Shown here: piece by piece, positions 3,928 through 23,806 of the stretch
How the letters are laid out: each line of letters opens with the position of its first letter
Numbering within the stretch: the stretch's first letter is position 1
Origin: a virus
Length of the DNA: 30,608 bases
Direction: 5' to 3' (one strand)
IMG/VR virus record: IMGVR_UViG_3300038701_002030
Location: 1 to 30,608 of that record
Program-made: the position numbers and the translations under genes
The notes under the pieces: generated by a model
The model's input: only the letters and a program-made list of their open reading frames with translations
Databases searched by the model: none
What the model was told of the DNA's origin: nothing

Positions 3928-4183
3928 AGTTCTGTCATCTGTCATGAGTTCTGTCATAGTTCTGTCATCGCTAAGTCCTTGATTCTATTACCTTTATTCT
4001 TCTTTATGACAGATGACAGAGAATATATAGTATATTGGTAACAGAATATGTAAATAAGAATGGTTATCATATATATAAATACTGGGGGAAAGTAGAAAAA
4101 GTTCTGTCATAATAAAAAAATGCCGCAAACCCACGTGGTTACTGGGCTGCGGCATGACAGAACGTTCCGGCATGTTTCTGTCA
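3928..4183. repeat. CTGTCAT repeat cluster, candidate replication origin
   Basis: Exact CTGTCAT heptamers occur at 3932, 3939, 3951, 3962 and 4104 on the plus strand and at 4006, 4013 and 4154 inverted, with a CTGTCA at 4178. Five of the longer units read GTTCTGTCAT. Between the two groups lies an AT-rich tract (about 4021-4080). Iterons beside an AT-rich unwinding tract, next to the primase-helicase gene, are the classical layout of a phage or plasmid origin. Spacing is irregular and units are short, so it is not CRISPR. An operator array is the main alternative. Confidence 0.55.
4101..4163 (-). terminator. Nested terminator after the primase-helicase gene
   Basis: On the minus strand ATGCCGCA (4155-4148) pairs perfectly with TGCGGCAT (4127-4120) and is followed by a T7 run (4120-4114); an inner CCCA/TGGG pairing extends it. 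Outside it, GTTCTGTCAT (4163-4154) can pair with ATGACAGAAC (4110-4101), itself followed by TTTTT. The two arms are members of the CTGTCAT repeat cluster. It closes the long leftward early operon 24 bases after the stop at 4187. Confidence 0.85.
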
Positions 4184-4186
4184 AAG

Positions 4187-6448
4187 TCACGTTATAGCGA
4201 ATAAATTAACCTTACTGTTCTGGTTATTGACGTAGAGGTCAGTAACTTTACTGATCGGTGAGTCATTATGTTCGCCAATTTTCACATAAAGTACAGGACG
4301 GGTATTACCATCAGTCTCTAAATTACGACTAACACGACCACTGTTGCTTTCTGTTCCTGTTAAATAGTCGTATCCCAACGACTGCATAATTGCCCGGCGC
4401 TTATTTCGTTTAACCTTTTTATCTAGCTTACGTTCAATCAGTAACCGGTCTAAGTGATATCCGCTAACGAACCCCCCTCTGAAACCATACAACCCTGCGT
4501 TAATCGCCTCTTGAATTTCCTGTTCGACTTCGCCTTGAGTATGTTCAATTGCTTCGTCTGTACTGGACGTTCTGGGGGCTTGCTGACACGACGTAGCGGG
4601 GTTGAGTTCATCGGCAATCACACAAGACGCTAAATAGTCGTGCACGATTGCATAGCCCCCCTCCTTCAGCCAAGCGTACAAGTTTTGAAAGTAGGTAGCG
4701 TTCCAACCGTCTCGCATCATGTCTTTTTTGGTTTGCTGGTTGCTGTATAAAATGGCGTAACGTCTTTGGTCCACATTGACCGGTATAGCGTCCTTATGAT
4801 TGGTCGCCATGATAATGTTCGCCCGGTTGTCACCGTTGTAAGTGTCCACACCTTTACGCTCAATCGCCAACTGTTCATTAGTAATGATCGGTTTGAGTGC
4901 TTCTAATACTTCGCCACGGTGCGACGGTATTTTAATTTCATCAATGAAGCAGAACAGTTTATTCTCAATCCAACCGTTAAACTTGCTAGCAATCTCAGTA
5001 CTGTTAGGAGTGATACAATAACGATCACCTAAACACTCTCTCATCACTCGATAGATAAGAGTCTTACCATTCCCTTCTACCCCTTGAACAACCGGTGACC
5101 ATTGGAACTTACTACCTTTATGCTGAACGCAAGCGGCCATGAACGACAACAAGATATCAGCGTCGCGCCCATGTGGAAGTAGCGTTTTTATATGGTTGAT
5201 GAATGGGCTCGGGTCACCTTTCATTCGTGGCGTATCAATCGGTACGTACGCATTAACGAAGTGATACCCCCCTTGCTTGTAAACAACCCCGCTCGGTTTC
5301 TCTGGTGCAAAACTTATCCGGTCTGCTTTTGGAAAAAACCATGCTTGGCTTTCGGTGAATACTTCAAAGGCGTTCTTACTGGTCTTGTCACCAATCGCAT
5401 CTAAAGCAAAAACATAACCGCCATAACTACTCTTAAACGCCATGGGTTTTAACATGGAACCATTCGGTGTAAGCACCGTCTGCAATTCTTTAATGTACGT
5501 GCAACCTTTAAAATAATCTTGTTGTGTTATGTGGTCCATAAATTGGTAACCGGACCGGACCGTCGCACCGTCTATGATTTCCGTAACGTCGTGCGCTTGC
5601 ACACTTTCCTTGTAGCATTTCTCAGTCATCAGCACCGCATTACTAATGGTACTTTTGCGGTACGCTTCACGCTTCACCCATTTGTCCCTGACCAAACCGG
5701 ACCGGTTAAACAATCGTTCCATTCGTACCGGGTTCTTTTGCGTCCAAAATGCAAGGTGCATGCACAGTGCTTGGTCAAGACTTGACTCATCACCGCCGTA
5801 CTGTACAACGGCTTGTTCTGTTTTATTCCACAGATCAGCTACGGTACATTTCCCAGTAAACGCATTAGCTACTCCGGTTGTACCCAACATCTTGGCAATC
5901 AGTGCATCATCATCGGGTATAGCCCCCAGTGGTTCATCCACCCATGGCACCGAACCGCTACCTACTACACCAACAGGGAAATACTTATCAGCAATAGTGG
6001 TGAGGTCGATTACTGTATCTTCATTACCACCGGCACCCACATTTCCTGTCCACGCTATAAAACGTTCAGTCGTGTAGAGTTCAATATGCAACTTAGTGTT
6101 TTTACACATTCTATCTTCAGGCACCGGACCAGTACCCCAAATGTGCAACCCCTTACCGGAACGCGACACCTCTACCAAACAACCAGCTGTAGCATTAACC
6201 AACTCCATAGCTAATGGGCTCCATGTACCGTCAGGCTGTAGAGCACCATCAATATCTAAGCACCAATACGGATTATCATCGGTAAGCACGAAACCAAGCT
6301 CGCAACCTATTAGTTGGGCTTGTATTTGAGCGGTTTTATGGTCGGTGTGAATAGATTGGTCGTGAGGGTCGTGAGGAGTTAAAAAAGCCGGATTAACCGG
6401 CACTTTGTTCTTATGTAAAATCCAATTATTGTACGCGGTTAATGGCAT
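4187..6448 (-). CDS. Primase-polymerase / SF3 helicase fusion
   Basis: 753 aa. The N-terminal third looks like an archaeo-eukaryotic primase (PrimPol) domain: motif I WCLDIDGA (D65, D67), motif II SRSGKGLHIWG (H102), motif III HIELYTTERFIAWTG (E123). The C-terminal half is an SF3/D5-like helicase: Walker A GVEGNGKT (about residue 452), Walker B LFCFIDEI (about 500), then IIMATNHKDAIPVNVDQRRY (sensor/arginine region). This is the layout of NrS-1-type and similar phage primase-helicases: the AEP half makes primers (or DNA) and the hexameric ring unwinds the fork. It is the last gene of the long leftward operon, overlapping the HTH gene by 23 bp, and abuts the candidate origin repeats it may recognise. 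Confidence 0.9.
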   Translation of the reverse strand: MPLTAYNNWILHKNKVPVNPAFLTPHDPHDQSIHTDHKTAQIQAQLIGCELGFVLTDDNPYWCLDIDGALQPDGTWSPLAMELVNATAGCLVEVSRSGKGLHIWGTGPVPEDRMCKNTKLHIELYTTERFIAWTGNVGAGGNEDTVIDLTTIADKYFPVGVVGSGSVPWVDEPLGAIPDDDALIAKMLGTTGVANAFTGKCTVADLWNKTEQAVVQYGGDESSLDQALCMHLAFWTQKNPVRMERLFNRSGLVRDKWVKREAYRKSTISNAVLMTEKCYKESVQAHDVTEIIDGATVRSGYQFMDHITQQDYFKGCTYIKELQTVLTPNGSMLKPMAFKSSYGGYVFALDAIGDKTSKNAFEVFTESQAWFFPKADRISFAPEKPSGVVYKQGGYHFVNAYVPIDTPRMKGDPSPFINHIKTLLPHGRDADILLSFMAACVQHKGSKFQWSPVVQGVEGNGKTLIYRVMRECLGDRYCITPNSTEIASKFNGWIENKLFCFIDEIKIPSHRGEVLEALKPIITNEQLAIERKGVDTYNGDNRANIIMATNHKDAIPVNVDQRRYAILYSNQQTKKDMMRDGWNATYFQNLYAWLKEGGYAIVHDYLASCVIADELNPATSCQQAPRTSSTDEAIEHTQGEVEQEIQEAINAGLYGFRGGFVSGYHLDRLLIERKLDKKVKRNKRRAIMQSLGYDYLTGTESNSGRVSRNLETDGNTRPVLYVKIGEHNDSPISKVTDLYVNNQNSKVNLFAIT

Positions 6449-6969: not shown

Positions 6970-7434
6970 TTACAAGTCAACAGGATCATTTAAGAATTTG
7001 GCATACCCACCACGTTTGAGTACCCAAGTGCACCAACGTAATTGCGCCTCCTCGTGATCATTACCGCTGTAAGTCCAGCCTTGTTTTTTAACTTCAATAC
7101 TGGCAAATTGACCAATCATTGTACCTACCATTTCCGGCGTAATGGTCACAGGGCGTATACCTATCAAGTCGGCACTCTTAAACTCTTTGTTCATTTGCCG
7201 TGTATCATTTGCTAACCCAAAACGCAGCGGTACCCCCCTTTTATCTTCAAGCACCCCGACGTTATTCCTGAGTAATGAAATACCTTTACGACTGGCTTCC
7301 AAACGAACACGTTGTTGTACCGACGATTCAGACATTGACCCACCGGCACTAACGTCAGGTGTAACAATGTCGGTTAACTCTTGTACTGCCATTGGTGGAA
7401 CTTGCCAACGTAAAACCCATTCATAAAATGTCAT
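6970..7434 (-). CDS. VRR-NUC domain nuclease
   Basis: 154 aa. From residue 37 the protein matches the VRR-NUC branch of PD-(D/E)XK nucleases: SSVQQRVRLEASRKGISLLR (N-terminal helix and strand), then RFGL...KSADLIGI with D89, then SIEVKK (E114-V-K116), and a helix with Q131 (EEAQLRWCTWVLKRGG). Phage VRR-NUC proteins are structure-specific or Holliday-junction-type nucleases used in replication and recombination. It overlaps its upstream neighbour by 4 bp (ATGA) and sits between helicase and primase genes, as in many phages. The N-terminal 35 residues are an unassigned extension. Confidence 0.88.
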   Translation of the reverse strand: MTFYEWVLRWQVPPMAVQELTDIVTPDVSAGGSMSESSVQQRVRLEASRKGISLLRNNVGVLEDKRGVPLRFGLANDTRQMNKEFKSADLIGIRPVTITPEMVGTMIGQFASIEVKKQGWTYSGNDHEEAQLRWCTWVLKRGGYAKFLNDPVDL

Positions 7435-7757
7435 TGGTTACCATCCTTTGACCTTAGTGCGTCAATAACCGAGTGATTTGCGGCCACTTTTAAAATTGCG
7501 TCGTTTACAGATTTCTCCGTTCCGTGTTTTTCTTCATGATGACCGCCGTCTCGGTGAACTATAGCGAGTAAATCAGAAAGCTGTTTTTTCAGATTATCCT
7601 TGGGTTCGATTTCATTATAAGCCAACGTAAACAGCTCCCAACCTTCCTGCAGAAAATTATCGACGTAACGACCATCAAGCTCATTACGATCAAAACAGTA
7701 GCCTTTCTTAGTTGCTCCTTTTTCGAAAAAAAGTCTTAGTCTATCTGTGTTATTCAT
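7431..7757 (-). CDS. Hypothetical protein, 108 aa
   Basis: Not recognised. The start at the ATG at 7757 (MNNTDRLRLFFEKG) is preferred because AAGGA lies 8 bases upstream; a longer frame to 7805 has no such site. Charged, soluble, with a histidine cluster HRDGGHHEEKHG (about residues 68-79) that could bind metal. The 5' end overlaps the preceding gene by 8 bp and the 3' end overlaps the VRR-NUC gene by 4 bp. Confidence 0.65.
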   Translation of the reverse strand: MNNTDRLRLFFEKGATKKGYCFDRNELDGRYVDNFLQEGWELFTLAYNEIEPKDNLKKQLSDLLAIVHRDGGHHEEKHGTEKSVNDAILKVAANHSVIDALRSKDGNQ

Positions 7758-8046
7758 GATCACCATCCTTAAATAATGCATCATATTGCAGCTTGACCTC
7801 CTCAACTACAGACTTCAAATGTAAGACTCTTCGATCATCCACTTGCCTAACAACTGCATTTGCAGCCTGAATTAGCAGGTCAATATCAGCAGGCAGCCCA
7901 CGATGCTGATTATCATTCATATCCTTTACGGCTTGCTGGTAGCCCATATTGGCACCGCAATGGAATTCTGAATGGAAACCTCTGGATTCAGTTCTTATGG
8001 TGTCGAACCAAGCATCAAACTTTTCCTTTACCTCTTCTTTGTTCAT
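7750..8046 (-). CDS. Hypothetical protein, 98 aa
   Basis: Not recognised. Helical, beginning MNKEEVKEKFDAWFDTIRTE; the FDAWF start and a FHCGANMGYQQAV helix recall short phage proteins of the E.fe.W....f.....aW.a.. type, without certainty. GGAGG lies 7 bases before the ATG, in a 17-bp sequence identical to that preceding the 65-aa gene at 8480. It overlaps the upstream gene by 32 bp. Confidence 0.66.
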   Translation of the reverse strand: MNKEEVKEKFDAWFDTIRTESRGFHSEFHCGANMGYQQAVKDMNDNQHRGLPADIDLLIQAANAVVRQVDDRRVLHLKSVVEEVKLQYDALFKDGDHE

Positions 8047-8281
8047 ACCCTACCCTCCAATCTCTGTTGGCGTGATCAATACCAAGGTTAAAAGCCTTTG
8101 TTGCTATTGCATCAATTCTACTGTGAAGCTCATTTAGAATAGCTTCTGCTCCTTCGATATCCGACTGACTAGATTTTTCATTCACTTTGAAATAGTCAAA
8201 AACATATTCCCTTAACTTCCCGCAAAATCGTTCATCTGCATTAGCAGTATTTACTAAGTAGTAATTGGTTTTTATCTCCAT
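8015..8281 (-). CDS. Hypothetical protein, 88 aa
   Basis: Not recognised. Begins MEIKTNYYLVNTANADERFC and has a long central helix (AEAILNELHSRIDAIATKAF, about 45-64). AAGGA lies 8 bases before the ATG. It starts 1 base after the preceding stop. One of a run of tiny genes (7431-9184) that look like replaceable early cassettes. Confidence 0.65.
   Translation of the reverse strand: MEIKTNYYLVNTANADERFCGKLREYVFDYFKVNEKSSQSDIEGAEAILNELHSRIDAIATKAFNLGIDHANRDWRVGYEQRRGKGKV
8042..8058. repeat. 17-bp repeated translation start region, copy 1
   Basis: The sequence TTCATACCCTACCCTCC (minus-sense GGAGGGTAGGGTATGAA) contains the Shine-Dalgarno and start codon of the gene at 8046 and is identical to 8476-8492. 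Confidence 0.7.
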
Positions 8282-8282
8282 C

Positions 8283-8480
8283 TTAGCTTTCCTTCTTTAT
8301 GTGATCAGATGGGTACTCTATAACTTCTGATTCAGTGGTATAGCTAACACGTTGAGCATAATTATCTTTCTTTACTTCAGCCTCAGCTTTTTCCATTGCC
8401 CTAAGTTCAGATAAAGCCAACACTTCAATTTCGTGAGTCTCAACAACTTTCACTTCAACCTTGTATTTTCCGTATTTCAT
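8283..8480 (-). CDS. Hypothetical protein, 65 aa
   Basis: Not recognised. MKYGKYKVEVKVVETHEIEV suggests an N-terminal beta hairpin, followed by a charged helix (LSELRAMEKAEAEVKKDN) and a final strand. This beta-alpha-beta outline is seen in small phage proteins that modify host factors, but no assignment is justified. A very strong AGGAGG precedes the start. It overlaps the upstream gene by 4 bp. Confidence 0.66.
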   Translation of the reverse strand: MKYGKYKVEVKVVETHEIEVLALSELRAMEKAEAEVKKDNYAQRVSYTTESEVIEYPSDHIKKES

Positions 8481-8492
8481 ACCCTACCCTCC
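8476..8492. repeat. 17-bp repeated translation start region, copy 2
   Basis: Identical to 8042-8058 and placed in the same way, covering the Shine-Dalgarno and ATG of the 65-aa gene. Confidence 0.7.
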
Positions 8493-8785
8493 TGATTTAA
8501 CACCAAACGTGCAGCGTCTAATGCCTTGATCCACGGTTCGCTAGTGTAAACATCATTATCATCCAACCTAACCAACATCTTTAATATGCTACGTAGGTTA
8601 GCTATCTCAACGTCTTTCGATTCCTTACGAGGAGGTTTGACTTGAGGCATATATTGAATGCTGTTTACACCGCTTTCCATTCGTTCAAGTTCACTAATTC
8701 GGTTACGAGCTTTTTCATAAAACCCAACTAATACCGCATTAATAATGGTCAGTATGAAAATTACTATTAATGATAATTCGAACAT
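8477..8785 (-). CDS. Small membrane-anchored protein, 102 aa
   Basis: Begins MFELSLIVIFILTIINAVLV, a clear N-terminal membrane segment (residues 2-22), followed by a positive helix (FYEKARNRISELERM) and a cytoplasmic or periplasmic tail of about 60 residues. The ATG at 8785 is preferred over a GTG at 8794 because AAAGG lies 8 bases before the ATG and only 1-5 bases before the GTG. It overlaps the end of the preceding gene by 47 bp. Membrane location in the early operon suggests superinfection exclusion or host-envelope modulation; this is a guess from context. Confidence 0.68.
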   Translation of the reverse strand: MFELSLIVIFILTIINAVLVGFYEKARNRISELERMESGVNSIQYMPQVKPPRKESKDVEIANLRSILKMLVRLDDNDVYTSEPWIKALDAARLVLNQEGRV

Positions 8786-9023
8786 CTTGTTCACCTTTGT
8801 TGTTATTGTTGTTGCTGCTCACCACTTGCGCCGTAGCATCGTAATATTGTGACTGTCGTTTTATAGCTTCGACACGAGCGTTGTACGACCAAAATAAACC
8901 GATTGACTCAACACCCGCTTGAAAGGTGTCGCGTTCTTTTAGCAGCATTTTCATTAAAGCAATCTGATAGTCAATTTCAAGCATCATCAGCGCGACCATT
9001 TTTTTCTGTTCCCATTTAGTCAT
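8739..9023 (-). CDS. Hypothetical protein with Asn tract, 94 aa
   Basis: Not recognised. A methionine-rich helical N-terminus (MTKWEQKKMVALMMLEIDYQ) leads to an SSNNNNNKGE stretch encoded by GTT-type triplet repeats (about 8795-8820), then a short C-terminal tail. The tail and the Asn codons also contain the Shine-Dalgarno of the next gene, so its end may be shaped by that overlap. It starts in an ATGA overlap with the small membrane protein upstream. Confidence 0.6.
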   Translation of the reverse strand: MTKWEQKKMVALMMLEIDYQIALMKMLLKERDTFQAGVESIGLFWSYNARVEAIKRQSQYYDATAQVVSSNNNNNKGEQDVRIIINSNFHTDHY

Positions 9024-9184
9024 TGCTTTTCACTCTGAAAAAATTGAATAACCACGCCGATTACGACACCGACGAAAAACATAAACGCTTGTTCGCCGCC
9101 ACGGTCGAAGATGTCCACACCGCTGTACCACGTAATGAACATTAGGAGGATTATTGCCAACAAACCTAATAGTAGTTTTTTCAT
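9020..9184 (-). CDS. Small two-helix membrane protein, 54 aa
   Basis: Frame beginning MKKLLLGLLAIILLMFITWY, an obvious membrane segment (residues 4-20), a short loop (SGVDIFDRGGEQ), and a second segment AFMFFVGVVIGVVIQFF (about 33-49). AAAGGTGA precedes the ATG by 5 bases and the stop overlaps the next start as ATGA, both strong signs of a real gene. A longer frame in another register (9030-9215) has neither. It is the first gene after the 24-bp inverted repeat. Holin-like size and topology, but outside the lysis cassette; function unknown. Confidence 0.75.
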   Translation of the reverse strand: MKKLLLGLLAIILLMFITWYSGVDIFDRGGEQAFMFFVGVVIGVVIQFFQSEKQ

Positions 9185-9205
9185 GTAACTCACCTTTTAA
9201 GTAGT

Positions 9206-9306
9206 AAGTGTGCAAAGTGGATGGTTTAAATTACCGAGCCCCCGCAGGTCGGCAAAAGAACCGTGTAGATACGCTACACCCGTTAAACCATCCACTTTGC
9301 ACACTT
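9206..9306. repeat. Perfect 24-bp inverted repeat enclosing two hairpins
   Basis: Arm 9206-9229 (starting AAGTGTGCAAAG) is the exact reverse complement of 9283-9306. The 53-base interior has two further hairpins: CCGA/TCGG plus CC/GG at 9234-9252, and GTGTAG/CTACAC at 9263-9279 with a 5-base loop. The whole can fold as a three-way junction. No T-run follows on the minus strand, so it is not a simple terminator. It lies between the stop at 9314 and the Shine-Dalgarno of the gene at 9184. An RNase III processing site, a structured RNA, or a mobile miniature element are candidates. Confidence 0.8.
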
Positions 9307-9313
9307 GTTTGTT

Positions 9314-9664
9314 TTAATCGTTATCAATGTAACGAACTATTTCAGATGCGCTGTTGTCAGTTTTTAAAGAACTAAAACCAAACGGCGCAAAATTAAAACC
9401 ATCCCCTTTACCGTAAACCCAAATGTGACGACCTTTCATTTCTGAAAAATCATTAACTTGTAATTCTATCAGTATTTTACGTATTAATTCACAACCTTTC
9501 GCTGTACCTACACGTCCGTCACCGTTTGGTGCATCAAGTGCTACGCCACCCAACACCTGCGAACAACCTTCCTCATAGTCCACGGATATTTTGAACGATA
9601 AGATGCCGTTACTTTTTCCCATAGAAAGTGATGCGTTATTAATTTTTGCTAATTGTTTATTCAT
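9314..9664 (-). CDS. Conserved-looking phage hypothetical protein, 116 aa
   Basis: Residues 25-115 recall a family of short phage proteins with the outline ...DY....Q..GG.ALD......RVGTA.GCE.I..IL..L.V...S.MKG..I.V: here SQVLGGVALDAPNGDGRVGT and GCELIRKILIELQVNDFSEM. That family has no established function that I can name. AAAGGTG lies just before the ATG. It follows the helicase gene by 14 bases and is followed by the large inverted repeat. Confidence 0.7.
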   Translation of the reverse strand: MNKQLAKINNASLSMGKSNGILSFKISVDYEEGCSQVLGGVALDAPNGDGRVGTAKGCELIRKILIELQVNDFSEMKGRHIWVYGKGDGFNFAPFGFSSLKTDNSASEIVRYIDND

Positions 9665-9678
9665 ATCACACCTTTGTT

Positions 9679-11289
9679 TTAACTCTGGTCTACCACTTTA
9701 TCTAAAATGACTTCTAAGTCAACTGTTTTTTGACCTAATGCACTCACCGTATCAATACCGAAGTTACGGTAAAATTTCATATAGGCCGCTTTAATGCTTA
9801 ATCCACCGGCCACTTGTACACCAGCCCAATGATCAATTGCATCACTTAACCGATTAACCAGATCAGTACGGTTGGTGTGTTTCTTTTCTAAACTGGCTTT
9901 TATAATGGGCGTCGCACCGTATGGAATTTTCAGTTTGTTAACATGAGCAACGTCACCCCTTAACTTAGCTAACATTTCCTCATCCATTTCAGTTAGATCA
10001 CCTTCTACAAACTCGGGCGCGGTACGTTCAGGTGGTAGTTGTTTATATCCACAGAACGGGCAAACCTTTTCCCAACTCTCATACACTTCTAAACAATTAG
10101 TACATGCTCTAATTGGTATTTCGTCAGGATCTTTCTCTGCACGTTTCTCACGACGATCTAGTGTCCATTCCTTGTGAGCATCCGGTAAACCGTGTCGTAG
10201 CACATTACCCACATGGTCGATGATGATAGCGTGGGATTTCCCTTCGGCCGGTCGTAGCACACGCCCAAACTGTTGAGCATATAGGCTGTATGATTCGGTT
10301 TTACGAGCCATACTAGCAACGGAACAAGCCGGTAAGTCGAATCCTTCACCAAACAGATCAACGTTCACTAACTGCAGGTACTCACGACGACCAAACGCCT
10401 TAATTGCTCGCTTACGTTCCGTATCCGGGGTTTTGGCACTCAGTGCGATAGCTGGTACACCGCTCTTGTTAAACTGGTCAGCTACAAGGTGTGCGGTTTC
10501 AACGTCCGGTACGAACGTTATACCCAGTTGTCCTTTAGCAAACCGTAAGTAGTCACGCACGATGTCACCGATAATGTGCGATTCTTTGGTACGTTTGGCC
10601 AATTCTTTCTGGTTGTAATCACCGGTTGTACTGCTCACTTTTAAATTGGTCAAATCAATATCGCTTGGCGGGGCAAAAATTCGATACTCAGTTAAGAAAC
10701 CTTCGTCAATTAACTGTCTCATAGATTGTCCAACGATCATTTCGTCAAACAAACCGTCGTGATGACTACCTAACCCTCTACCGTCAGCACGTATTGGCGT
10801 AGCTGTCACACCAAGCCCACGAGCATTAGGGAACAGTTTGGCACCCTTACCCCACTTATTGTCTATAAGGACGTGGTGCGCCTCGTCAGTAACCCACAAT
10901 TTAACGGAATTAAACCATTGCATTAACGTCGGGTCACCTGCTCGCCTTATCAGAGTATCGACACCGGCCACAGCGACCGTTGAGTTAGGGTCATACCAAC
11001 TCTTACCCACTTCTGAGATATGATCCTGTATGCAATTCCGAATGACGGTATTTGGAGCAATTATACGGTGCTTAATACCGTTCCTAGCGAGTGCGATACT
11101 AATCTGGTTTACCAGTTCTTGCCGGTGAGCAATTGCACAACAAGGCTCGTGTTGATGTAACCGTATTATCTCGGAAAAGATAACTGTCTTACCACCACCG
11201 GTTGCAAGTACAGCAAGTGAATTTTTAACGCGGGTATGGGATTCAATAATTTGTGCGACTAATGTTTTTTGGTAGTTTCTTAACTGCAT
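9679..11289 (-). CDS. SF2 DEAH-box helicase with C-terminal zinc finger
   Basis: 536 aa. Motif Q/I: LRNYQ (3-7) and ATGGGKT (29-35); motif II DEAH (135-138); motif III VTATP (161-165); C-terminal RecA fold with VDLFGEGFDLP (310-320) and motif VI QQFGRVLRP (339-347). A four-cysteine zinc finger follows (C396, C399, C410, C413: CTNCL...CPFCG). This is the UvrB/RecG-like DEAD/DEAH group common in phage replication modules, and probably remodels forks or recombination intermediates together with the VRR-NUC and DUF2800 nucleases. Its ATG overlaps the upstream stop by one base (TAATG). Confidence 0.93.
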   Translation of the reverse strand: MQLRNYQKTLVAQIIESHTRVKNSLAVLATGGGKTVIFSEIIRLHQHEPCCAIAHRQELVNQISIALARNGIKHRIIAPNTVIRNCIQDHISEVGKSWYDPNSTVAVAGVDTLIRRAGDPTLMQWFNSVKLWVTDEAHHVLIDNKWGKGAKLFPNARGLGVTATPIRADGRGLGSHHDGLFDEMIVGQSMRQLIDEGFLTEYRIFAPPSDIDLTNLKVSSTTGDYNQKELAKRTKESHIIGDIVRDYLRFAKGQLGITFVPDVETAHLVADQFNKSGVPAIALSAKTPDTERKRAIKAFGRREYLQLVNVDLFGEGFDLPACSVASMARKTESYSLYAQQFGRVLRPAEGKSHAIIIDHVGNVLRHGLPDAHKEWTLDRREKRAEKDPDEIPIRACTNCLEVYESWEKVCPFCGYKQLPPERTAPEFVEGDLTEMDEEMLAKLRGDVAHVNKLKIPYGATPIIKASLEKKHTNRTDLVNRLSDAIDHWAGVQVAGGLSIKAAYMKFYRNFGIDTVSALGQKTVDLEVILDKVVDQS

Positions 11290-11597
11290 TACTCAATCCA
11301 CTCTACGATAGTGTTACCAATGTTACATTTATCAAACTTACCAACCGGTAAACTTATGGTAATGTTACCGACACGACAATGTTGACGGTTATTTACTGGC
11401 CACCCAACAGCCTTCACTTTGAGCAACACACCATCGACCCTTAAAACCTTGGGTATTCTTGCACCTCGTAACCGCTCCCTCGCCGTGTGAACGTCCATAG
11501 GATTACAGACCGGTTTGTCAGGATCGTTAACATCCCATTGTAAACCACAACTATCACAGATCATTTGATCACTATATTGTTTAGCTTTACAGATCAT
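11289..11597 (-). CDS. Zinc-binding phage protein, 102 aa
   Basis: The N-terminus MICKAKQYSDQMICDSCGLQ...C has cysteines at 3, 14, 17 and 31, a probable zinc knuckle of a type frequent in phage small proteins (M.C......QM.C..CGL.WD..D....C). The remaining 70 residues appear to be beta-rich and are unassigned. It overlaps the upstream gene by 11 bp and joins the helicase gene by a TAATG junction, so it is expressed with the helicase. Nucleic-acid binding is inferred from the knuckle. Confidence 0.75.
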   Translation of the reverse strand: MICKAKQYSDQMICDSCGLQWDVNDPDKPVCNPMDVHTARERLRGARIPKVLRVDGVLLKVKAVGWPVNNRQHCRVGNITISLPVGKFDKCNIGNTIVEWIE

Positions 11598-11916
11598 CTA
11601 AAACCTCCAACAACTTATCACATTGTTCGCTAGTAAGATGTTTACAGTCGCCTCTAAGGAAGTGATATGCTTTTGCTGCAACTTTCTTACGTTTTACGTT
11701 TAACTCAATCTGTAAACGCAACTCTGTACTGTATTCAACCAAGGTGGTCAGTGAATATCGATTACCGACCAAAGAACCGCTACTACGGTTGAACTTCATC
11801 CCCGCAACTATAACTTGGGTTTTGGTAATCCGGTCAACCGTTCTGATTTCACTACGATTTCGTCGACTGATTATAACTCGATCACCAACACCTAAGTTCT
11901 CTAACCAATTACTCAT
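11587..11916 (-). CDS. Phage protein with beta-barrel-like N-terminus, 109 aa
   Basis: Residues 1-55 (LGVGDRVIISRRNRSEIRTV, then ITKTQVIV...FNRSSGSLVG) show the alternating strands of a small SH3/KOW-like barrel, a pattern often seen in short phage proteins. The C-terminal half is helical and basic. AGAGG lies about 8 bases before the ATG. Possibly RNA- or protein-binding; no specific function known. Confidence 0.7.
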   Translation of the reverse strand: MSNWLENLGVGDRVIISRRNRSEIRTVDRITKTQVIVAGMKFNRSSGSLVGNRYSLTTLVEYSTELRLQIELNVKRKKVAAKAYHFLRGDCKHLTSEQCDKLLEVLDDL

Positions 11917-20159: not shown

Positions 20160-20178
20160 AACCGATCTATCGCCGGTT
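20160..20178 (-). terminator. Weak hairpin at the tail fibre stop
   Basis: AACCG (20160-20164) and CGGTT (20174-20178) form a 5-bp stem overlapping the stop codon of the tail fibre gene on the minus strand. There is no T-run, so it may only stabilise or space the transcript between tail and lysis genes. Confidence 0.3.
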
Positions 20179-23100
20179 AGTTATCTTCTCCGGTCAAGAA
20201 AGGTAAAGCTACTCTCTGTTGAGTGACAATCACATTGTTTCCATTCAAATCTTCTTCTGCATCAGTACCATCTAGGACTGTGAATTTATTATCATCACCC
20301 CAGCCTGTACCGTCCCAAGGAGTGAAATACAAAGACCCTGAGTTACTTACTATTTCCCCATTGGTTGCCTCTGTTAAACTATCAACAGTGTAAGTTCCTG
20401 ATATTTCACACAAGTAAGCCTTCCTTGGGGCTTTATTAGTGAACCAATAGTATTCACCAATTGTATAAGTTGCACTAATTGAGCTATTGGCAGTTGTAAA
20501 ATCAGTCACTGCATCTTTGTTCACATCCCAGATTAATTCTTTAGCTAAGAATTGTAGGTAGTAACGACCATTCTCATGAGATAAATAACTGAGAACTTTT
20601 GCTGCCGGTGAGCCGTTTGGGTTGGGATACCCTAATGTTTCATGCGATAGGTTGTATGTGTCAATAAGTACATCATCCCCTATTGCGAAATCCTTCATTT
20701 TAGCATTACCAAATCGCTGTCCAGCATTAGTGCTAGTTGGGACTTTCTCAATCAAAGAATTCACAAAGGCTACACCGTATTGTTCTTGGTGGGACTGAGA
20801 AGCAAAAACATCACCCAACATATCCACAACAGAATTATTCGCTTCCTCAGTGAATCTCGCATCGGTGGTGTAGAAGAGTAAGTGCATTCTTCCAGTTGGG
20901 ATTGAAGTTGTTCTAGCATTATCACTTCCTTCTGGCCCTGCTGTCCATGAGCTAGTGTCTACAGTCCAAGTAATGCCGTTATCGTCTGAGTAAATTGCAA
21001 GTTGAGTCTCTTTAACTTTTCGACTCATCTTTTGTGTTTTACTCGTACCATCAGGAATTAAACTTTCCCCAGAATCTGCGTGAGTCAATAATGGAAATCC
21101 TGGAATTCCATCTTGCAACCATGATCCTGCTGCACGAGATTCATTCCAATCAGGTCCGAGGTCTGTGAAGTAATTAGCCTCATAGTCTAAGTTATTTATA
21201 TCGTATGAAGCAGCTACACCATTATCGTTGAACTTATAGAAGTTCCCAACAATTCCAGATCCATTGTTATTAGCTGCTCCTAGATGAATAATATCCCCTA
21301 TCACCAAACTAACAGTTTGAGCAATTCCATCATTAGTCCATTGTTGTCCACGATATTTTCTACCTAAATCTACCCAAGTAGAACTTGCATAATCTGTTGT
21401 GGAAAGATTTACAGAGCCTACCCCAGCAATGCGTCGATAGTAATGTCCGATAATTCCATTAGTAGATGAACCATTGTTATAGACAACCTCATCTATAACT
21501 ACAGTAACAATCTGACTCGTTCCATCATTTGTCCAATCCTGACCGTCATACGTTGTTCCGAGATCAGCCCAAAATGTTGAGTTAGTGTATGTTTGAGTGT
21601 TCAGATCAATATCGATATATGAGCCAATTGACCGATAATAATGTCCGATATTTCCTGCGGCACCTCCAGACTGTAGAAAAACTACATCGCCAGACTGCGT
21701 TGTAACAACCTGACTCGCACCAGTATTCGTATAATCCTGACCAGAATAATAATTTGCCGGATCACCAATCACATCACACTGCAACATTTCTTTGAACTTG
21801 AGCGTTTCTTTTACGCGATAGATGGTGGTGGTTGCGCCTTGGGTACGGCTGAATCCTACACCTGTCGATGTGTTAGCGTACGCCAGCTCGCGCGTAACTG
21901 ATAAGAATATTGAAGTTGTTGTCGTGTCTCGAATGTATCCATAAGCTGTATTGTCACCGTTTTTAACAACAACAAATGAACCTATATCGTCATCAGAAAA
22001 TGTACCGCTATCATATGCAAAAGTGGCAGTGGCAGCACTGTCTACGTTTACTTCTTCAGCAACACTTGCCACTTCCCAAAACGATTCAGATTCACTACCA
22101 CGAATCTCGTTCGAAATAGCTTTACGCTTGAACTCTTCTAACAAATCACCTTTGGATTTTCGTCGTGCAGAGATTCTTAAATCTTGAACATCACCTTCAT
22201 AAATTGCGTCGTAGAATTTACCGTCTGGTCTTCCTACAGTTCCAGAATCCGCAATTGCACCTGATGCAGGGTAATAACCAAAGTCGTCAAAATCTCCTGA
22301 AGTCAGGCATTGGGCAGTAGACACAATATCTACAACTGCTTCGTTATACCAAGGGGCATCAGCAATAACACCGGATTTAAGCCATGTAGCTGAACCATTT
22401 GGATTTAGCACAGGATGATAAGCGCCCTGATTTCTTCGTGACACTAAAGCGATTGGAATGAAATAACATTTTCCTTCGTGTGCGTAATAACCATTTGGAT
22501 CAGGATCACCACCACTAAATTTAGCAGGGGTAAATGTGCCTCTATCCCCATCAATCAGATTGTATGCAGCACCGCCTCCAGCAAAACCAACTCTATCATT
22601 TGAAGATGACGCCTCATAAGAATTATCAGTTGCATCAGTTGTTTGTCCTCTAACTCTAAGGACTAGTGATGTACCTTGACGAATAAAATTATTGTCAGAT
22701 TGTCCGTCTGTGTTTTCCCATTCCTCACCCAAACCAGCAATTGATCTTACACGGTAACGAACCTGAATTAATTTCCCAGTTTTGGCACTGCGATAAATAT
22801 TATTTTTAGGGTCATCAATAAAGATTGCACGAGCGGAATCAGATAAAGAATTCCAAGCAGCACCATAGCCTTTTGTCTCTGTATCCCATTCACCGAAAGC
22901 AGAATACCCTTGAGCAACAACTGTGTTACTTAACGAGATTCCTTCGTGAGTGGTAGCTCCATATTGAACATTACCAAACGGATAGACTGCACCATTCGTA
23001 TCAATTTCTTCGTGCCAAACTTCTAAGCCAAGCAAATCTGATCGATCAATTATTGAGGCATTTAAAGAAGTTCCACCGGCTGTAATTGCTGCTGCATGAT

Positions 23101-23806
23101 TATCGAATCGACCTGTACCATCTTTTTTGTCTAGTCCATCTGGTGCGGGTGGTAGAGTGATGTAGTTCTTTTTATCCCCTCTAGTAGTTCCGCGAATATC
23201 TACAATTACACCGTCGATATTAGATACAGGGTTAAAACTCAGACTATCTCCTTCATACGTGGAATCGTTTTCGTCTCTACCGAATGCTATAGTATTTACA
23301 ATGCTTTCTTTTAACGTCCAGAGGCCATTTTGTATTTGACCAGAAGGCCAAGACTTACCAAACTCAACATATCCACTTCCAGCAAATTTGCGGCGGTTAG
23401 ATTCTGCGATAGAATTGAATTCTGCTTCAGACATTCCAGTAACAATCTGAGAAGATAGTGCGTCAGCAATTGCCTGAATCTGTTCAACGGAACCTGTGGA
23501 TGCGACGAGCTGGTTGAACAACACTTCGGTTTCTAAATCGCCCTTGCTCATCAAAGGTTTACCGTCAAGGAAATCACGCTGTATAACGTAAGAAGCATTG
23601 GCGATAGTTGAACCACCATAAGGTGCGCTCAACCTTACAAAATGATCATTACCGAGTTGCCCAACCGTAGTAACTTCGTATTTGATCAGGTCCGGTCCAA
23701 TGAACCAATCGCCTGCATTGACGTTGTTTACAAAATCTACGCCATTACCGTAAACATTAGAATCATCTTTAGTGACATTCACAGTACCTGTTCTATATTG
23801 ACTCAT
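20177..23806 (-). CDS. Tail fibre / receptor-binding protein, 1209 aa
   Basis: The N-terminal 70 residues (SQYRTGTVNVTKDDSNVYGN, AGDWFIGPDLIKYEVTTVGQ) match the small beta domain that starts many phage tail fibres. The middle contains fibre-type signatures such as GNVQYGATTHEG and FIPIALVSRRNQGAYHPVLN. Residues about 685-885 are three tandem copies of a 65-residue unit (YxGQxWTNDGxxQxV...GxxGHYYR...WxDLG). The C-terminus is beta-rich and ends DLNGNNVIVTQQRVALPFLT. It should form a trimeric fibre that binds the host surface. AGGAG lies 7 bases before the ATG and the gene follows the tail tip gene by 10 bases. Confidence 0.85.
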   Translation of the reverse strand: MSQYRTGTVNVTKDDSNVYGNGVDFVNNVNAGDWFIGPDLIKYEVTTVGQLGNDHFVRLSAPYGGSTIANASYVIQRDFLDGKPLMSKGDLETEVLFNQLVASTGSVEQIQAIADALSSQIVTGMSEAEFNSIAESNRRKFAGSGYVEFGKSWPSGQIQNGLWTLKESIVNTIAFGRDENDSTYEGDSLSFNPVSNIDGVIVDIRGTTRGDKKNYITLPPAPDGLDKKDGTGRFDNHAAAITAGGTSLNASIIDRSDLLGLEVWHEEIDTNGAVYPFGNVQYGATTHEGISLSNTVVAQGYSAFGEWDTETKGYGAAWNSLSDSARAIFIDDPKNNIYRSAKTGKLIQVRYRVRSIAGLGEEWENTDGQSDNNFIRQGTSLVLRVRGQTTDATDNSYEASSSNDRVGFAGGGAAYNLIDGDRGTFTPAKFSGGDPDPNGYYAHEGKCYFIPIALVSRRNQGAYHPVLNPNGSATWLKSGVIADAPWYNEAVVDIVSTAQCLTSGDFDDFGYYPASGAIADSGTVGRPDGKFYDAIYEGDVQDLRISARRKSKGDLLEEFKRKAISNEIRGSESESFWEVASVAEEVNVDSAATATFAYDSGTFSDDDIGSFVVVKNGDNTAYGYIRDTTTTSIFLSVTRELAYANTSTGVGFSRTQGATTTIYRVKETLKFKEMLQCDVIGDPANYYSGQDYTNTGASQVVTTQSGDVVFLQSGGAAGNIGHYYRSIGSYIDIDLNTQTYTNSTFWADLGTTYDGQDWTNDGTSQIVTVVIDEVVYNNGSSTNGIIGHYYRRIAGVGSVNLSTTDYASSTWVDLGRKYRGQQWTNDGIAQTVSLVIGDIIHLGAANNNGSGIVGNFYKFNDNGVAASYDINNLDYEANYFTDLGPDWNESRAAGSWLQDGIPGFPLLTHADSGESLIPDGTSKTQKMSRKVKETQLAIYSDDNGITWTVDTSSWTAGPEGSDNARTTSIPTGRMHLLFYTTDARFTEEANNSVVDMLGDVFASQSHQEQYGVAFVNSLIEKVPTSTNAGQRFGNAKMKDFAIGDDVLIDTYNLSHETLGYPNPNGSPAAKVLSYLSHENGRYYLQFLAKELIWDVNKDAVTDFTTANSSISATYTIGEYYWFTNKAPRKAYLCEISGTYTVDSLTEATNGEIVSNSGSLYFTPWDGTGWGDDNKFTVLDGTDAEEDLNGNNVIVTQQRVALPFLTGEDN
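21150..21750 (-). repeat. Three tandem 65-aa repeats in the tail fibre
   Basis: Units start at YSGQDYTNTGASQ, YDGQDWTNDGTSQ and YRGQQWTNDGIAQ and end WADLG, WVDLG and FTDLG. DNA similarity is partly kept (for example a CGATA-TAATGTCCGATA-TTCC block near 21434 and 21633), which points to duplication of one binding or spacer module. The unit resembles carbohydrate-binding modules of chitin/cellulose-active enzymes only loosely. Confidence 0.85.

Follow-up and report, generated by a model that had tools for sequence, protein, structure and literature searches.

What role does a long, exact inverted repeat play in the midst of a packed phage operon? The question is raised by a 101-bp element in the window, by which we mean the whole stretch of DNA that was analysed, 30,608 bases; this is an entire IMG/VR entry, classified as linear and perhaps only a fragment. 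The element lies in a minus-strand block that runs from ~12.4 kb downwards and encodes a helicase, very small proteins, a nuclease-like protein, a TetR_N protein and a primase. An earlier note on this DNA called the operon early, a putative timing suggested by its gene content. Similar gene order was observed in Edwardsiella phage MSW-3, Jedunavirus BUCT_49532, Pectobacterium phage PEAT2, Shewanella phage SppYZU01 and Acinetobacter phage Scuro, with 38-52% protein identity to these five phages. Relatives of the helicase and the primase were sought with six-homologue alignments; single-sequence scans returned almost nothing. Since the distant matches of the protein encoded at 20177-23806 are nearly all in Vibrio phages, and the 116-aa gene adjoining the element has a match in a Shewanella phage, a gammaproteobacterial host is plausible. 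The features on which the argument depends, in operon direction, are as follows.

9679-11289, minus strand: helicase gene (phrog_16), the next operon gene upstream of the 116-aa gene
9314-9664, minus strand: gene upstream of the element, 116 aa, phrog_30930 family, function unknown
9206-9306, minus strand (the operon sense strand): whole element, a 24-bp perfect inverted repeat with a 53-nt spacer
9283-9306, minus strand: 5' arm in the operon transcript, AAGTGTGCAAAGTGGATGGTTTAA
9206-9229, minus strand: 3' arm in the operon transcript, TTAAACCATCCACTTTGCACACTT
9020-9184, minus strand: gene downstream of the element, 54 aa, product small, hydrophobic and with no relatives; start codon ATG at 9184, with AAAAGGTGAG ahead of it
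6970-7434, minus strand: nuclease-like gene, whose position matches that of a gene annotated 'nuclease' in BUCT_49532
6426-6737, minus strand: gene for the TetR_N protein
4187-6448, minus strand: primase gene

The inverted repeat and its placement

The two 24-nt arms (9206-9229 and 9283-9306) are 100% complementary and stand 53 nt apart; the coordinates, arm length and perfection given in the earlier note were all reproduced. Each of the 24 pairs is Watson-Crick, with zero G-U pairs and zero mismatches, and the arm ends read AAGTGTG and CACACTT. The inverted repeat is real and rare, and lies far beyond chance: the number of perfect 24-nt arm pairs expected with a spacer of at most 200 nt is 3.6e-8 per window (analytic), and the longest perfect inverted repeat in 200 simulated windows (first-order Markov) measured 10-16 nt. 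The element is present as a single copy within the 30,608-base record.

The 129-nt gap that holds the element is the only gap of more than 45 nt in the minus-strand block between 4187 and 12399, the remaining junctions being either overlaps or 1 to 45 nt long, in a count that takes the 54-aa gene as starting at the ATG at 9184. Read in operon direction, a spacing of 7 nt separates the 116-aa stop codon from the start of the element, whose other end lies a few bases ahead of the Shine-Dalgarno-like AAAAGGTGAG of the 54-aa gene. Upstream of it lie four genes, including that of the helicase, plus the 116-aa gene, and downstream the small genes, the nuclease gene, the TetR-like gene and the primase gene. 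The claim that the element separates the helicase part of the operon from the tiny-gene part is thus correct locally, but the nuclease gene, the TetR-like gene and the primase gene (4187-6448) sit beyond the tiny genes, indicating that the element does not divide replication genes from accessory genes. The absence of a terminator T-run was confirmed for the operon direction, in which the minus strand continues ACTACTTAAAAGG after the long stem; no U-tract directly follows the stem, unlike in an intrinsic terminator. On the plus (antisense) strand, the long stem is followed by a T-rich stretch, GTTTGTTTTAA.

Predicted fold and search for relatives

The predicted RNA fold of the minus (operon sense) strand had an energy of -55.2 kcal/mol (z -9.8 vs shuffles), and that of the plus strand -50.0 kcal/mol (z -9.6). 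We considered the 5 kcal/mol advantage of the sense strand as a sign of an RNA role and rejected it, since the shuffle means differ by a similar amount and the asymmetry is therefore explained by composition. When the 53-nt interior was folded alone, the sense strand scored z -1.4, being matched or exceeded in stability by 26 of 200 shuffles, and the plus strand z -2.1 (9 of 200). Two inner stems were predicted within it.

9263-9279, minus strand: first inner stem, GTGTAG-CGTAT-CTACAC (predicted; not significant by itself)
9231-9255, minus strand: second inner stem, around the TTGCCGACC...GGGCTCGGTAA stretch (predicted; not significant by itself)

Either strand folds into the three-way junction described in the earlier note, but the inner stems are not clearly better than those of shuffled sequences. 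Because the interior scores near shuffles, the junction is a prediction unsupported beyond the arms; the long helix alone is significant, and the two inner stems may be incidental.

The exact 24-nt arm had no match in IMG/VR, and both arms together (16+16 nt) had none in GTDB genomes. Relaxed inner arms (10+10 nt, variable spacer) returned 11 GTDB loci and 1 viral locus, all of them coincidences or unrelated repeats and, by our own estimate, about the number expected by chance, while relaxed outer arms returned a single viral locus carrying unrelated short palindromes. No match was obtained with blastn against INPHARED phages and PLSDB plasmids, and 48 whole related-phage records yielded just 14-23 nt fragments with weak E-values. 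Across the whole window no Rfam 15 family reached its gathering score, and the sub-threshold matches were microRNA-type stems, reflecting only a long stem. Taken together, the search for the arms and the element in other genomes, which the earlier note had proposed, gave no credible copy in IMG/VR, GTDB, INPHARED, PLSDB or the 48 related records. The element looks like an orphan by sequence, and in kind like an ordinary control element.

We likewise asked whether the element travels with the 116-aa gene, an idea that was rejected: in 11 of 11 loci with homologues of this gene, from other phages and contigs, no inverted repeat of at least 13 follows it. MSW-3, BUCT_49532, PEAT2, SppYZU01 and Scuro contain no inverted repeat with arms longer than 16, and the function of the element is therefore not essential to such operons. 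For the small genes downstream of the element, the searched loci and phages yielded no relatives, and no empty site was found there. Related phage loci totalling 2.6 Mb, with some overlap among them, contained only one longer perfect repeat, of 28 bp. The other long inverted repeats of related phages are of unrelated sequence and occupy different places; two of them share a type.

Locus L027, 8581-8763: 28-bp perfect inverted repeat, spacer 127 nt, in a region devoid of long ORFs
Locus L032, 11991-12195: repeat of the L027 type, in which a one-sided mismatch and a duplicate of one arm set it apart from L027

In another pair of loci, L125 is without the partner arm of the L144 repeat, such that pairing was not conserved in either of the 2 comparisons available for covariation (L032 vs L027 and L125 vs L144). 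Long inverted repeats in these phages can be transient DNA events, and the pairing lost in the L032 and L125 repeats tempers any functional claim for the element studied here.

Processing or protection of the operon transcript, and its rivals

The best reading, to which we assign a probability of about one half, is that the element is an intercistronic hairpin for mRNA processing or stabilisation, serving as an RNase III-type substrate. Upon transcription of the operon, the arms would pair to form a 24-bp helix capped by a 53-nt loop in which two small stems are possible, and this helix would most likely constitute a boundary of mRNA processing or decay. Either a host RNase III-type enzyme would cut inside the helix, or the intact hairpin would block 3'-to-5' exonucleases, giving the helicase and 116-aa messages ends and stabilities separate from those of the small-gene, nuclease and primase messages. 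The hairpin probably also keeps translation of the 54-aa gene from being re-initiated by ribosomes that have just completed the 116-aa one. In proposing this, we infer transcription through the element, its cleavage, and its effects on stability and translation.

This reading is supported because both position and helix length fit. The minimum target of RNase III is given as 22 nt, and the enzyme recognises structure rather than conserved sequence (PMC5371410); the element presents 24 contiguous pairs, where a helix of at least ~22 bp is called for, and lies between same-strand, presumably co-transcribed genes in the 129-nt gap. Of the options raised in the earlier note, a putative RNase III-type site fits best, by its helix length and by its placement between stop codon and Shine-Dalgarno-like sequence. 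Intercistronic RNase III sites of the E. coli pflBA and ahpCF operons stabilise one part of the operon, and RNase III targets include RNAs of lambda, T7 and T3 (PMC5371410). The element resembles these sites in combining a long intercistronic helix with a replication-type phage operon and no terminator tract, and differs from them in that its 24-bp helix is perfect, has no internal loop and has no homologue, and its cleavage is presumed. Protective hairpins of programmed operon decay (malEFG, menBCE, puf and papBA type) are likewise stable, intercistronic and without a U-tract; those hairpins were mapped by RNA ends, whereas the element is known by position and predicted stability alone. In 26 of 34 E. 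coli operons whose upstream segment is stabilised, the stable 3' end was located just past a stable hairpin lacking a U-tract (PMC5927463). The lack of G-U pairs is slightly unusual for an old RNA helix and counts against a processing hairpin, and with no homologue found, an RNA function has no support from conservation or covariation.

If the element does act as a processing or stabilising hairpin, one hairpin would split a packed phage operon post-transcriptionally into differently expressed units, without a second promoter. Long inverted repeats are sporadic in this phage group, and the value of the element is mainly that of a clear, readily testable example and of a reminder of this. We consider it unlikely that it is the first one seen of a novel kind, be it a phage RNA or a terminal-repeat element, namely an operon-junction hairpin module that uncouples its flanking genes; were this so, the other repeats of related phages, unrelated in sequence, would be independent instances of one recurrent class.

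The main rival, with a real, albeit minority, chance of being correct, is that the element is a DNA-level remnant with little or no function, either a small non-autonomous element with 24-bp terminal repeats or a palindrome that template switching created as the phage replicated or recombined, which landed or arose harmlessly in the intergenic gap. Perfect arms without G-U pairs or mismatches would suggest a recent origin, a mild point in favor of a remnant. The one-sided change (L032) and the missing partner arm (L125) seen among the other long, unrelated repeats of related phages are a further point for it. The location is also suitable: in 152 related loci, the genes at the helicase-nuclease junction lie anywhere from overlapping to 3,572 nt apart, with 2,245 nt here (7435-9678), and the junction reads as an accessory-gene insertion site of the phage group. 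The miniature mobile element put forward in the earlier note retains its terminal repeats, and is like MITEs and other non-autonomous terminal-inverted-repeat elements in being short with exact arms. Nevertheless, judged by copy number (one in the record, and nothing credible in IMG/VR, GTDB, phages or plasmids) and by target duplication (no direct repeat abuts the arms, TTTTAA standing just 5-6 nt off on either side), it has no positive support as a MITE; it is without relatives, and no partner transposase was found among the window proteins tested.

A discrete regulatory RNA, either a processed 101-nt small RNA acting in trans or a cis-acting three-way-junction switch that senses a ligand or protein, would profit from the very stable fold and from a two-sided cut of the helix that would free the interior, and the weak ProQ C-terminal-like protein of the operon (PF24203, below cut-off) makes RNA binding conceivable. 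Given that the interior structure is no better than shuffles, that no Rfam family matched and that no relatives show conserved loops, such an RNA seems distinctly unlikely. We regard as very improbable a DNA site, be it a replication origin, a single-strand priming hairpin or a recombination site: although the element is close to the helicase gene in a non-coding gap, no iterons lie alongside, the repeated GTTCTGTCAT cluster at 3929-4163, by the primase gene, is a much better candidate, and GC skew does not switch at 9.2 kb, changing instead near 12-13 kb, where gene direction changes. Integron attC sites share with the element a ~100-nt folded inverted repeat directly after a short gene; this assignment was rejected because the RYYYAAC and GTTRRRY core sites are absent from the arm ends, and the element further differs in its perfect arms and lack of extrahelical bases. 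That the element is an operon terminator or attenuator, or a bidirectional terminator that stops antisense transcripts, would agree with GGTTCTTTT after the first inner stem in the sense direction and with the T-rich antisense stretch after the long stem. It is highly improbable in light of the sense strand lacking a T-run after the long stem, of terminator-like sites being no commoner than in shuffles (12 found vs 11.8 expected), and of the downstream primase and nuclease genes needing expression with no strong promoter in the gap.

Other features of the window and of related loci

Exact sites of the 10-mer GTTCTGTCAT occur at 3929, 3948, 3959 and 4101 (plus strand) and at 4154 (minus strand), and nowhere else in the window. 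The cluster sits just downstream of the primase gene and includes a second inverted repeat, with 15-bp arms (3931-3945 and 4006-4020) and a 60-nt spacer; it looks like a set of replication-origin iterons or regulator binding sites. Two identical 18-nt minus-strand sites, AAGTGTTGCACTTATTTA, are found at 1055-1072 and 2636-2653 as part of a palindrome, compared to a chance expectation of 0.06 matches at up to 3 mismatches. Each displays TTGCAC followed by TATTCT 16-17 nt on, which makes the two sites candidates for promoters under shared regulation, in which an operator would cover the -35 box. An intrinsic-terminator-like hairpin followed by six T's, at 6387-6401 on the minus strand, falls within the first primase codons and could be an attenuator or a product of chance. 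The small operon protein encoded at 11587-11916 gave the weak match to the phage ProQ C-terminal-like family (PF24203, 23.4 bits vs a cut-off of 27) and is a possible RNA-binding protein.

Outside the window, a 3,025-bp fold-back palindrome at 1-6054 of L180, a Rhodanobacter genome contig, is probably an assembly artefact. Relatives of the 116-aa gene in L172, L173 and L174 are bordered by stretches similar to integron attC sites, with TTGTTATAAACC before and TTATAACGC after the gene in both L172 and L173; a strict core-site scan did not recover the flanks of these three loci. Members of the 116-aa gene family may also occur as integron cassettes. Within the window, the 10-mer TTAAAACAAA has only 2 minus-strand sites, 9308-9317 and 9673-9682, which fall at the stop codons flanking the 116-aa gene, as if a short duplication had accompanied the insertion of this gene.
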